The notes under the pieces: generated by a model
Database searches by the model: none
Told to the model about the DNA's origin: nothing
Seen by the model: only the letters and a program-made list of their open reading frames with translations
Source: Haloferax marinum
GTDB lineage: Archaea; Halobacteriota; Halobacteria; Halobacteriales; Haloferacaceae
Assembly (NCBI RefSeq): GCF_009674625.1
Contig: NZ_WKJQ01000001.1
Coordinates: 310,001 to 374,000 of the forward strand
Direction of reading: 5' to 3'
DNA length: 64,000 bases
Shown here: in pieces, positions 5,679-9,066 of the stretch
How the letters are laid out: the number at the start of each line of letters is the position of its first letter
How positions within the stretch are numbered: the stretch's first letter is position 1
Translations under genes and position numbers: made by a program

Positions 5679-5687
5679 TTTTTATAC
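5679..5687 (+). promoter_or_regulatory. TATA box of leuA
   Basis: TTTTTATAC is centred 27 nt upstream of the ATG at 5711. In haloarchaea this spacing places transcription start at or next to the start codon (leaderless mRNA). It decides that the ATG at 5711, not the TTG at 5691, is the intended leuA start. Confidence 0.75.
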
Positions 5688-5710
5688 TAGTTGCCACACC
5701 GAACTGACAC

Positions 5711-6947
5711 ATGTCTCACAACGACACGGAGGATTCGTCGGGTTCCCCGGCGGGTCGAGTTCTTCCAGGGCACATTAGCCCAACAATCTGAAATCGAAGA
5801 CGTACGAATCTTCGACACGACACTCCGCGACGGCGAACAGTCACCGCGAACCTCGTTCAGCTACGAGGAAAAGCGCGACATAGCCGCCACCCTCGACGAC
5901 ATGGGCACCCACGTCATCGAGGCAGGGTTCCCCGTGAACTCTGATGCGGAGTTCGAGGCAGTCGCTGATATCGCTGCTTCGGCGGACAACTCGACGACGT
6001 GCGGACTGGCCCGCGTCGTCGACAAGGATATCGAAGCCGCGCTGGATTCCGGCGTGGACATGGTGCACACGTTCGTCAGCACCAGCGACGTCCAACTGGC
6101 CGACTCGATGCACGCCTCTCGCGAAGAGGCCGTCGAGCGTGCTGTCCGCAGTGTCGAACGCGTCCGCGACGCGGGCGTCGAAGTAATGTTCTCTCCGATG
6201 GACGCCACCCGAACGGACGAGGAGTTCCTGATCGAAGTCGTCGAAGCGGTCTCCGAGGCCGGCGTCGACTGGATCAACCTCCCCGACACGTGTGGTGTGG
6301 CGACGCCGACTCGCTTCGCCCGGATGGTCCGGATGGTCCGCGAACACACCGACGCTCGAATCGACGTGCACGCGCACGACGACTTCGGACTGGCGTCGGC
6401 GAACGCGATGGCCGGATTCGAAGCAGGCGCCGCACAGGCGCAGGTGTCGGTCAACGGCATCGGAGAACGTGCTGGGAACGCCGCCTACGAGGAGGTCGTC
6501 ATGGCCGCTGAATCCATCTACGGCGTCGACACCGGCATCGATACCACTCGAATCACCGAGCTGGCCCGCATCGTCGAGAAGGCCTCCGACATCCCGATTC
6601 CGGCGAACAAGCCGGTCGTCGGGCAGAACGCCTTCTCCCACGAGAGCGGAATCCACGCCGCCGGTGTCATCGAGAACGCCGACACGTTCGAACCGGGCGT
6701 CATGACCCCCGAGATGGTCGGGGCAACCCGCGAGTTCGTACTCGGCAAGCACACGGGGACGCACTCGGTTCGCAAGCGCCTCACCGACATCGGGTACGAA
6801 CCGACGGACGCCGAGGTCCGCGAAGTCACCCGACGCGTCAAGGATTACGGCGCGGAGAAAGAGCGCGTCAACGACTCGACGCTCGAGGCGTTCGCCCGCG
6901 AGGTCGGCGTCACCCACGAGGACGAGAGGGAGGAGGTCCGCGCCTGA
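5711..6947 (+). CDS. leuA: 2-isopropylmalate synthase, with an apparent N-terminal +1 frameshift
   Basis: Condenses acetyl-CoA with 2-oxoisovalerate, the first step of leucine synthesis. The catalytic TIM barrel shows FDTTLRDGEQSPRTSF, the metal site HAHDDFGLA and the Gly-rich VNGIGERAGNAA; SHESGIHAAGV follows. The protein ends without the long C-terminal leucine-sensing domain of bacterial LeuA (about 400 residues). The leaderless ATG at 5711 gives MSHNDTEDSSGSPAGR and then hits TGA at 5789-5791, while the conserved part (VEFFQGTLAQQ...) is in the next frame. That frame alone could only start at a TTG (5691) lying inside the promoter. The shift falls near the CCCC run at 5745-5748. A one-base insertion, a sequencing error or a small real deletion are all possible; citramalate synthase is the nearest alternative function. 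Confidence 0.85.
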
Positions 6948-7029
6948 TGGCGCTGGGCTGTGGCCCTACTGGGCGACCGCCCGGCACCCGCTCTCGGTCG
7001 GCGAGCAATCGTTGCCCGTCGCGAAACAG

Positions 7030-7038
7030 TTATTATAC
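7030..7038 (+). promoter_or_regulatory. TATA box of the ilv leader
   Basis: TTATTATAC is centred 27 nt upstream of the ATG at 7062, the same geometry as at leuA. It implies that the ilv transcript starts at the leader-peptide ATG and carries a leader of about 250 nt before ilvB. Confidence 0.7.
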
Positions 7039-7061
7039 ACCGGGAGTACGTGTGCCATACG

Positions 7062-7163
7062 ATGAATCAGCACGGCGCACAGCTGGCACCCGCTTCACCG
7101 CACGCAGCGGTAAGCGAAGGCACCGTCGCTGCTGTTCGGTCGCTCATTATTGTAGGGGCATAG
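7062..7163 (+). CDS. Putative leader peptide of the ilvBNC operon (33 aa)
   Basis: A 33-codon open frame with a leaderless ATG 27 nt behind a good TATA box. The peptide is MNQHGAQLAPASPHAAVSEG followed by TVAAVRSLIIVGA. The last codons before the stop include CTC ATT ATT GTA (Leu-Ile-Ile-Val), and the ATT and GTA forms are uncommon in the flanking genes, which favour ATC and GTC. A 5-bp GC stem (GGGGC/GCCCC, 7155-7167) spans the TAG stop. A short peptide with branched-chain codons directly ahead of the branched-chain biosynthetic operon is the classic signature of attenuation control. Archaeal attenuation of this kind is not established; the role is inference. Confidence 0.55.
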   Translation: MNQHGAQLAPASPHAAVSEGTVAAVRSLIIVGA

Positions 7164-7167
7164 CCCC
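7155..7167 (+). promoter_or_regulatory. GC hairpin across the leader-peptide stop codon
   Basis: GGGGC (7155-7159) pairs perfectly with GCCCC (7163-7167) around the loop ATA; the TAG stop of the leader peptide lies in loop and stem. A ribosome at the Ile/Val codons or at the stop would prevent its folding. Confidence 0.5.
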
Positions 7168-7192
7168 CTCACACTCCATCTCTCAGTCCTCG

Positions 7193-7207
7193 GGTTCGAA
7201 CCGTTTT
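7193..7207 (+). terminator. Palindrome plus T-run in the ilv leader, candidate attenuator
   Basis: GGTTCGAACC (7193-7202) is a perfect 10-bp palindrome, followed after one G by TTTT (7204-7207). It lies between the leader peptide and ilvB, where a terminator would control read-through. The stem is short and the loop would be minimal, so activity is uncertain. Confidence 0.35.
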
Positions 7208-7231
7208 CAGACACTTCAGCAGTCCCCAACC

Positions 7232-7315
7232 ATGGAGCACCAGTTCCACATCAACGACCGACAGCACACGTATCGACATCGACCGACAACACATCCGCAC
7301 GGAGGGCAGCCATGA
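7232..7315 (+). CDS. Possible 27-aa upstream ORF overlapping ilvB
   Basis: ATG at 7232 opens a 27-codon frame (MEHQFHINDRQHTYRHRPTT...) rich in histidine and arginine. Its TGA overlaps the ilvB ATG (ATGA, 7312-7315), the arrangement used for translational coupling throughout this operon. There is no clear ribosome-binding site before it and its composition (basic, His-rich) is unlike the acidic proteins around it, so it may be chance. Confidence 0.25.
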   Translation: MEHQFHINDRQHTYRHRPTTHPHGGQP

Positions 7316-9066
7316 GCGAACGCACCGCCGCCTCGACTGAACCGGACACGTCGTCGGACGACGAATCCACGAAGACGGAAGTGACCTCGGGCGCGACGGC
7401 AGTCGTCCGCGCCCTCGAGAACGCTGGCGTCGAAACGGCGTTCGGCGTGCAGGGAGGGGCAATCATGCCCATCTACGACGCCCTGTATCACTCCGACATC
7501 CGTCACGTGACGATGGCACACGAACAGGGCGCAGCACACGCCGCAGACGCCTATGGCGTCGTTCGCGGTGACCCTGGCGTCTGTCTCGCCACGTCCGGGC
7601 CCGGCGCGACGAACCTCGTGACTGGCATCGCCGACGCCAACATGGACTCCGACGCGATGCTCGCGTTGACCGGTCAGGTCCCTTCGGACATGGTCGGCTC
7701 TGACGCGTTCCAGGAGACGGACACGACGGGCGTCACTGCCCCCATCACGAAGCACAACTATTTCGCGTCCTCTCCAGACACCGTCGGTGACACCGTCGGT
7801 GAAGCCTTCGCGCTGGCCGGTACGGGCCGACCTGGCCCGACGCTGGTCGACCTGCCGAAGGACACGTCGCTCAGCGAGACCGACCGCGAACCCGGTGAGG
7901 CCAAGCCACCGGAGACGTGTCGGCCTCGCCTCGACCCCGACGAAGCGGAGGTCGAAGCGGCCGCACGCGCAATCGAGCGCGCGGAGAAACCCGTGCTCCT
8001 GTTCGGCGGTGGCGTCGTCAAAGCAAACGCGACAGCGGTCGCCCGGCAGTTCGCGACCGAGCACCAGATTCCGGTCGTCACGACCATGCCCGGAATCGGT
8101 ACGATGCCGGAAGACGACGAACTCTGCCTCTCGTGGGCAGGGATGCACGGTACTGGCTACGCCAACATGGCCATCACGCACACCGACTGCCTCATCGCGG
8201 TCGGGACGCGTTTCGACGACCGCTTGACCGGCGGTATCGATACGTTCGCCCCCGAAGCAGAAGTCGTTCACATCGACATCGACCCGGCGGAAATCTCGAA
8301 GAACATCCACGCTGACTACCCGGTCGTCGGCGACGCCGGCCGTGCCCTCGAGGCGATCGACGCCGCGATGGAACACAGTCCGGAAGCACCCGAGTGGCGC
8401 GAACAGTGCCTGACGTGGAAAGACGAGTACCCGATGGATTACGCGGCACCCGACAACGAACCGCTGAAACCGCAGTTCGTCGTCGAGGCGCTGGACGAAG
8501 CGACGCCCGACGAGACCATCGTCACGAGCGGCGTCGGCCAACACCAGATGTGGGCCGCCCAGTACTGGACGTTCCGCGAACCCCGTCGCTGGGTTTCGTC
8601 GCACGGACTCGGCACGATGGGATACGGCCTGCCTGCCGCCATCGGTGCACGACTCGCTGCCGACGACGACGAGACGGTCGTCTGTGTGGACGGCGACGCC
8701 TCGTTCTTGATGACGATTCAGGAACTGTCGGTCGCCGTCCGTGAGAACCTCGACATCACCATCGCTATCCTGAACAACCAGTACATCGGGATGGTCCGCC
8801 AGTGGCAGGACGCCTTCTTCGAAGGGCGTCGCATGGCCGCCGGCTACGAGTGGTGCCCACAGTTCGACAAACTCGCTGAAGCGTTCGGCGCTCGCGGGTG
8901 GACCGTCGACTCCTACGAGGAGGTTCCCGACGCCATCGAAGAAGCACTGGCATACGACGGCCCGTCGGTCATCGACTTCCACGTCGACCCGGCAGAGAAC
9001 GTCTACCCGATGGTCTCGTCGGGCGCACCGAACGGCAAATTCGCACTCTCGGAGGACCAATTATGA
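7312..9066 (+). CDS. ilvB: Acetolactate synthase, large catalytic subunit
   Basis: A 584-residue ThDP enzyme that condenses two pyruvates, or pyruvate with 2-oxobutyrate, in valine/isoleucine synthesis. The catalytic glutamate is in MAHEQGAAHAADAYG (E71). The central FAD-binding domain and the C-terminal ThDP motif (GDASFLM near 461, then AILNNQYIGMVRQWQ) are present. A Shine-Dalgarno GGAGGG lies at 7301-7306, five bases before the ATG. The stop overlaps the ilvN ATG (ATGA at 9063-9066). The variable, Ser/Asp-rich first 20 residues are typical for haloarchaea. Length and motifs separate it from the ThDP enzymes MenD and oxalyl-CoA decarboxylase. Confidence 0.95.
   Translation: MSERTAASTEPDTSSDDESTKTEVTSGATAVVRALENAGVETAFGVQGGAIMPIYDALYHSDIRHVTMAHEQGAAHAADAYGVVRGDPGVCLATSGPGATNLVTGIADANMDSDAMLALTGQVPSDMVGSDAFQETDTTGVTAPITKHNYFASSPDTVGDTVGEAFALAGTGRPGPTLVDLPKDTSLSETDREPGEAKPPETCRPRLDPDEAEVEAAARAIERAEKPVLLFGGGVVKANATAVARQFATEHQIPVVTTMPGIGTMPEDDELCLSWAGMHGTGYANMAITHTDCLIAVGTRFDDRLTGGIDTFAPEAEVVHIDIDPAEISKNIHADYPVVGDAGRALEAIDAAMEHSPEAPEWREQCLTWKDEYPMDYAAPDNEPLKPQFVVEALDEATPDETIVTSGVGQHQMWAAQYWTFREPRRWVSSHGLGTMGYGLPAAIGARLAADDDETVVCVDGDASFLMTIQELSVAVRENLDITIAILNNQYIGMVRQWQDAFFEGRRMAAGYEWCPQFDKLAEAFGARGWTVDSYEEVPDAIEEALAYDGPSVIDFHVDPAENVYPMVSSGAPNGKFALSEDQL

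Follow-up and report, generated by a model that had tools for sequence, protein, structure and literature searches.

Leader-peptide attenuation is a textbook bacterial mechanism. The enterobacterial attenuators of this type (ilvB/ivbL, ilvGMEDA, leu and pheST) have Shine-Dalgarno-led leaders with multiple control codons, and their terminator carries a U run. Like the haloarchaeal leader described here, they carry a leader peptide that drifts in sequence and that ends, before the operon, in a tail of codons for the end product.

The closest known system is the ilvBNC attenuator of Corynebacterium glutamicum (leader MTIIRLVVVTARRLP), which involves a bacterial RNA polymerase, three hairpins and an overlapping terminator and antiterminator. 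It shares with the haloarchaeal locus the position at the operon head, a short leader ORF discussed as leaderless and the branched-chain codons; GUA is one of its two control codons, and the leader lies about 290 nt before ilvB (PMC11857589, in part). For archaea, we found no case of leader-peptide attenuation in the open-licence literature, including the available parts of PMC11481537, PMC11456600 and PMC12482152. The long 5' UTRs of H. volcanii contain 16 uORFs of 15-31 residues behind mapped starts, one of which (26 residues) lies before pheS (PMC4983044, in part). In the available part of that paper, ilvB1 (HVO_1508) is absent from the uORF table and the stem 'attenuat' is absent from the text.

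We analysed a 64,000-nt stretch of Haloferax marinum (contig NZ_WKJQ01000001.1, positions 310,001 to 374,000), which we call the window; coordinates are those of the window and the leader features are all on the + strand. The ORF list gives the cluster order leuA, ilvB, ilvN, ilvC, leuC, leuD, leuB, with names assigned by sequence resemblance and, for ilvB, also by searches (91-93 % match to named Haloferax records). The gene ilvB, for the acetolactate synthase large subunit (7312-9066, +), heads the ilvBNC-leuCDB cluster. Upstream of it, the original prediction had described an AT-rich box, an ATG at 7062, a 33-codon frame with branched-chain codons in its tail and a GC hairpin at the stop, and all of these lie where it placed them. 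The TATA box TTATTATA (7030-7037), with CGAAA just 5' of it, is recognised from the sequence and from the Haloferax alignment; its centre lies 28 nt from the ATG, from which we infer a leaderless promoter for the downstream frame. This frame, uORF1 (7062-7163), emerges from the sequence, the Haloferax alignment and the class comparison; it encodes MNQHGAQLAPASPHAAVSEGTVAAVRSLIIVGA in 33 codons followed by TAG at 7161-7163, with the tail CTC ATT ATT GTA GGG GCA TAG. The candidate control codons ATT ATT GTA (Ile Ile Val) occupy 7146-7154. A hairpin, GGGGC-ATA-GCCCC (7155-7167; arms 7155-7159 and 7163-7167), identified by counting partners and by folding, holds the stop codon.

The 33-codon frame is present in all 15 Haloferax genomes, the own genome included. 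The alignment of the 15 loci shows conservation of the start codon, of the TTATTA box and, at the tail, of TTCGGTCGCTCATTATTGTAGGGGC..TAGCCCC; in one species the final sense codon differs silently. We compared codons in 14 distinct frames of equal length (L015 was dropped for its identical 80-nt stretch) and found that codons 2-25 drift (pN/pS 0.73 for codons 2-24). No change, even at silent sites, is seen from codon 26 to codon 32 or in the stop, and codon 33 changes silently only. A drifting front and a frozen tail are what is expected of an attenuator leader, not of a small protein. The reading of uORF1 as a standalone small protein was set aside on the evidence of frame, stop and drift.

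Beyond Haloferax, a like leader stands before ilvB in 118 of 119 judgeable haloarchaeal loci, corresponding to 102 distinct sequences. The 118 loci are L002-L113 plus six variants, with some species included twice; removing identical 80-nt stretches yields the 102, and two further loci, L305 and L306, are left out of the set. At L306 the sequence is too short for judging the leader. L305 comes from a 1.9 Mb genome within the class (G132), whose ilvB has 58 % identity; the 380 nt preceding that gene contain no leader of this kind. These 380 nt look like coding sequence.

The most constant part of the leader is its Val codon. GTA is kept in 118/118 loci with the leader, a count to be read knowing that GTA formed part of the pattern by which loci were recognised, that this pattern was widened for L300 after its inspection and that no locus given lacked GTA. 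GGG comes next in 101 of the 102 distinct loci, and GTAGGG occurs within 520 nt upstream of ilvB in all 97 loci L017-L113. The tails read, for example, SLIIVGAA, IRIVGAF, PIIVGV, RIIVGAL or RGIVGV before the stop. Among the 102 distinct loci, the residue before GTA is Ile in 97, Val in 3, Leu in 1 and Arg in 1, while Ile stands two codons before it in 52 and Leu three codons before it in 35. The proposed Leu-Ile-Ile-Val tail thus holds for its constant Val GTA, mostly preceded by Ile, whereas the Leu and the first Ile are clade features. As had also been proposed, ATT and GTA are uncommon nearby, with ATT at 10 % of the Ile codons (12/118) and GTA at 3 % of the Val codons (7/225) of the seven cluster genes.

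Do these tails belong to a defined reading frame? In 65/102 loci an ATG is preceded, at 20-33 nt, by a hexamer of A and T only, and in 65/65 of these the ATG is in frame with the tail and the frame is stop-free. For the other 37 loci, the best-scoring ATG, read off the printed list, is in frame in 35; L303 has no ATG in range and L301 gives a frame tie. The stop follows 2-3 codons after GTA in 97/102 loci, inside the GGGG/CCCC hairpin (two sense codons in 49 and three in 48; TAG in 69, TAA in 20 and TGA in 8). In the five others (L084, L102, L103, L109 and L300) six or seven sense codons come after GTA and the frame extends beyond the hairpin, as in IVGAPTPRL, indicating that a stop inside the hairpin is not essential.

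These data bear on two readings in which codons would not be what is sensed. One is that the inverted repeat at the stop is a DNA or RNA operator bound by a protein, with the ORF incidental. The repeat is nearly frozen and extends outward in some clades (at least 3 outer pairs in 10/100, by a simple count), as an operator could; the occurrence of TAG, TAA and TGA at one fixed in-frame position, the 65/65 frame agreement and the replacement of Ile by Val or Leu require translation, however, and make this reading extremely improbable. A DNA operator was set aside on the same grounds of frame, stop and drift. The other is that the tail IVG(A/V) arrests the ribosome as a nascent peptide and senses a metabolite instead of codon hunger. 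Val (102/102) and Gly (101/102) are indeed nearly invariant, but their neighbours vary (I, V, L or R before; A, V or P after) and Arg replaces Gly in L300. It is the codon that is fixed rather than the peptide, which points to the tRNA, and we consider peptide arrest very unlikely.

By comparison, then, the short ORF ahead of ilvB has a conserved frame, start and in-frame stop, and the end-product codons at its end are conserved with the remainder drifting. The attenuator-like layout of the original prediction is supported in that frame, codons and hairpin recur in the relatives and across the class. The sequence check that the original prediction had set, conservation of frame and codons in related genomes, was passed.

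We also searched genomes with the pattern ATYGTAGGGGN{2,12}CCCC. It matches one place in the own genome with no further copies elsewhere, and the reversed control gives 0. Within the class, the pattern is found in 203/212 genomes and 64/68 genera. At 125 of the 139 printed places an in-frame stop comes 1-2 codons after GTA GGG (82 TAG, 24 TAA, 19 TGA), and no printed pattern string has such a stop in either of the other two frames. Each of the remaining 14 is a genome's second place, the stop being present at the other one. An ilvB gene was found in all nine class genomes lacking a match, and seven of them carry a variant leader: VVVGAV, AVVGAR, VVVGAA, LVLVGAL, IVGPA, IVGA (with a CCC arm) and IRVRAAMAH. 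The variants keep GTA with a branched-chain codon adjacent or one codon away. Outside the class, within the phylum, 14 pattern places occur in 12/121 genomes and none has an in-frame stop. By this pattern, the leader is a feature of the haloarchaeal class. A search of the plasmid collection gave no match.

The hairpin is conserved as well. Its folding energy in the window, over a stretch of 31 nt, is -10.4 kcal/mol (z -2.1). In 100/102 loci an exact partner of the four bases following GTA lies nearby, versus 40.9 expected from shuffled windows, an expectation that overstates independence since the loci are related and the shuffles single-base. The two exceptions, L300 and L302, pair with a shifted or shorter arm. 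Compensatory changes occur only in L301 (GGGC/GCCC) and L300 (GGGCC/GGCCC), so that, the stem being nearly invariant, support from covariation comes from L300-L302.

Immediately 3' of the hairpin lies a G-poor, T-enriched tract (7169-7186), defined by base composition over 77 loci: G amounts to 3-11 % and T to 27-33 % in the 18 nt after the C arm, compared with 18-34 % and 6-15 % at 42-120 nt after it. The hairpin with this flank is terminator-like but does not amount to a hairpin with a U run; searching the leader for a textbook terminator (hairpin plus U run) gave 0 sites. No competing antiterminator helix was evident on folding the leader, the whole leader folds no better than its shuffles (z -1.03), and long-range pairing of uORF1 with the entire leader downstream of it is weak (mean rank 0.42). 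Rfam 15 covariance models, including the T-box and ilvB RNA motifs, gave one chance match over 6900-7400 (RF02878, 9.3 bits against a gathering value of 221). In H. volcanii, 503 mapped ends have a hairpin upstream, and a reporter assay of one hairpin measured 59 % termination (PMC7237163, in part). The factor FttA binds U-rich RNA (PMC11616081, in part), and ribosome coupling and FttA action may be mutually exclusive (PMC8116511, in part).

The region between uORF1 and ilvB, foreseen as a leader of about 150 nt, measures 148 nt from 7164 to the ATG at 7312. Its length stands, but it is not a plain leader, as most loci carry there a second small ORF, unmentioned in the original prediction, that overlaps the ilvB start. 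In the window this is uORF2, MEHQFHINDRQHTYRHRPTTHPHGGQP (7232-7315), which is poor in Ile/Leu/Val and whose TGA overlaps the ilvB ATG as ATGA; the Shine-Dalgarno-like GGAGG of ilvB, recognised from sequence, lies within it (7301-7305). We also note the element ACCGTTTTCA between the two uORFs (7200-7209). It is conserved in Haloferax, can be read by eye as GCAYCGTTTTC in several other genera and was not seen in Halorubrum.

A uORF2 overlapping the ilvB start as ATGA is found in 79/92 loci versus 18 expected from single-base shuffles, with shared ancestry again inflating the count. Ten of the 102 loci, six of them variants, were dropped because the assigned ilvB start is not ATG. The length is 7-49 codons, apart from one uORF2 of 79 codons. 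Ile, Leu and Val together make up 2.6 % of uORF2 codons (45/1720) compared to 10.9 % and 8.2 % in the other frames and 6.9 % in shuffled bodies, and 50/79 peptides contain none of the three. We read this avoidance as probable selection for translatability under branched-chain amino-acid shortage.

It is conceivable that ribosomes finishing uORF1 restart at the first AUG, in uORF2 or ilvB, in the manner of eukaryotic uORFs and in a share set by Val and Ile. The first ATG after uORF1 does lie in the uORF2 frame in 76/80 loci, and 12 of the 13 loci lacking uORF2 have no ATG at all in the gap, leaving the ilvB ATG as the first. Here, however, 68 nt separate uORF2 from the stop of uORF1, and coupling in H. 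volcanii fell gradually with spacing up to 30-40 nt (PMC12548453, in part). The hairpin would also be left without a role, and we regard control by reinitiation as improbable.

Another possibility is translational attenuation, in which the RNA just 5' of the control codons would pair with the ilvB start and mask it, and a ribosome stalled on Ile or Val would occupy this RNA and free ilvB. In the window, TCGCTCAT (7140-7147), a possible anti-start segment, is perfectly complementary to ATGAGCGA, which lies at the start of ilvB (7312-7319). When pairing to the ilvB start was scored over 77 distinct loci, the 20 nt preceding GTA reached a mean longest run of 5.3-5.4 versus about 3.4-4.1 for other upstream windows, and at least 7 bp in 25-27 % versus 0-6 %. 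With the segment before GTA fixed, the ilvB start is the best target (at least 7 bp in 25-29 % of the 77 loci), and runs of 9-11 occur in some Natrialbales-type loci (L092, L093, L102, L104, L108).

This complementarity is matched by observations on the other side. Other targets reach at least 7 bp in 12-19 % at -74 to -62 before ilvB and in as many as 12 % within ilvB. Judged by energy, the segment finds partners within ilvB just as it does at the start. The pairing is no weaker when partners are exchanged among clades (mean rank 0.487), so that this control gave the anti-start segment no support. Against synonymous recoding, p<0.05 is reached in 14/77 loci by energy and in 4/77 by run length; those 14 comprise 7 Natrialbales-type, 5 of the Haloferax-Halogranum kind and 2 Halobellus, with none from Halorubrum or Halonotius. 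The hairpin would have no role in this case either, and we think translational attenuation rather unlikely.

Based on the comparisons above, we consider it very probable that uORF1 is conserved as a translated leader and senses the supply of Val/Ile by one means or another. With moderate confidence, we hypothesize that it acts as a ribosome-mediated attenuator of ilvBNC in the transcriptional mode, reading the charging of tRNA-Val (GUA) and tRNA-Ile; action on transcription is favoured over action on ilvB translation. Transcription would start at the uORF1 AUG, as the TATA spacing indicates. When Ile and Val are plentiful, ribosomes would pass the rare AUU and GUA codons, stop in or just past the hairpin and dissociate. 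Flanked by its G-poor, U/C-rich stretch, the GGGG/CCCC hairpin would then form behind the RNA polymerase and favour its release, alone or with FttA, and few transcripts would reach ilvB. Under Val or Ile shortage, the predicted response has the opposite sign: a ribosome stalled with AUU or GUA in the A site would enclose the GGGG arm and block the hairpin, and transcription would continue. Such occlusion could stand in for an antiterminator structure. With few Ile/Leu/Val codons, uORF2 would be translatable in shortage and may pass ribosomes to ilvB through the ATGA overlap; coupling by termination-reinitiation has been reported in H. volcanii (PMC12548453, in part).

Other genes of amino-acid metabolism were inspected for related arrangements. 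A search for Phe-rich ORFs before pheS found one in 20 of 30 genomes (L175-L204), with ten giving none. These uORFs have 23-28 codons in 19/20 cases and tails such as FGFGFFF or GFGFFFDA, with an AT-rich box upstream in most; that of the own genome (L186) lies at about 1889730-1889810 of G000:C1. By eye, most of the aligned set has a hairpin after the uORF stop, with the flanks GGUCGGCGGA and CGAAACCGACC or close variants. Rfam models run on two pheS loci gave only a sub-threshold miRNA match, elsewhere and on the other strand. The uORF of 26 residues and pI 5.9 behind a mapped start before H. volcanii pheS (PMC4983044, in part) resembles the 26-residue uORF of L192 (pI 5.94, mass 2822 versus 2772 tabulated for H. 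volcanii). The two are alike, a likeness that falls short of established identity.

The leuA gene of the window (5680-5791 and 5835-6947) presents a different configuration. Past the inferred transcript start, the leuA frame itself offers no start codon. A frame of 26 codons, +1 relative to leuA, begins at ATG 5711, and GTTCTTC (5759-5765) lies at the crossing. Of 23 leuA loci (L277-L297 among them), 22 have a LeuA start motif, L298 having no recognisable one in the stretch taken. In 22/22 a short frame, +1 relative to LeuA and mostly ending in SPAGRVLPGH.. before the stop or alike, starts at an ATG that follows an AT-rich stretch, and GTTCTTC occurs in the same register. In 21 of the 22, no in-frame ATG follows; L280 has one, and L290 has an in-frame TTG. 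CTT accounts for 2/146 Leu codons in the cluster genes. This layout is suggestive of a programmed +1 frameshift at a rare Leu codon. LeuA would be made only through the frameshift, and with the rare Leu codon in the zero frame, leucine hunger would switch LeuA on. We found no report of a haloarchaeal leuA frameshift in the literature, and 'leuA' is absent from the available part of a frameshifting review (PMC5009743).

A like scan of trpC (30 loci), tyrS (24), hisG (22 of 24 loci) and trpS (24) revealed no conserved Trp-, Tyr- or His-rich leader, which serves as a partial negative control only, the gene start having probably been taken too far upstream in a few loci (e.g. L217, L227, L248). 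Isolated ORFs containing two or three of these residues did turn up here and there (e.g. L149, L208, L244, L261), and two weak hisG matches were not used. Whether haloarchaea sense amino-acid supply more generally via ribosome behaviour, through the Ile/Val leader of ilvB, the FGFFF leader and hairpin of pheS and a +1 frameshift at GUU CUU C in leuA, is a proposition that we judge evenly balanced. If true, it would amount to an entire archaeal level of control by tRNA charging, with leaderless translation as its basis.

A class-wide example that includes the genetically tractable Haloferax would offer a direct test of whether archaeal transcription-translation coupling suffices for ribosome control of RNA polymerase. 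The ilvB leader would also give a view on how archaeal termination (hairpin, FttA) responds to a stalled ribosome, and its constant GUA tests ideas on the preference of attenuators for particular rare codons. Compared with C. glutamicum, the haloarchaeal leader has an archaeal host, one small hairpin at the stop codon with no terminator/antiterminator pair found, and an extra uORF overlapping ilvB. It would work in a similar manner, and we file it as a variant of the leader-peptide attenuator, not as a proven member. Where the enterobacterial leaders use several control codons, the haloarchaeal leader has one constant Val codon, usually accompanied by one or two Ile codons.
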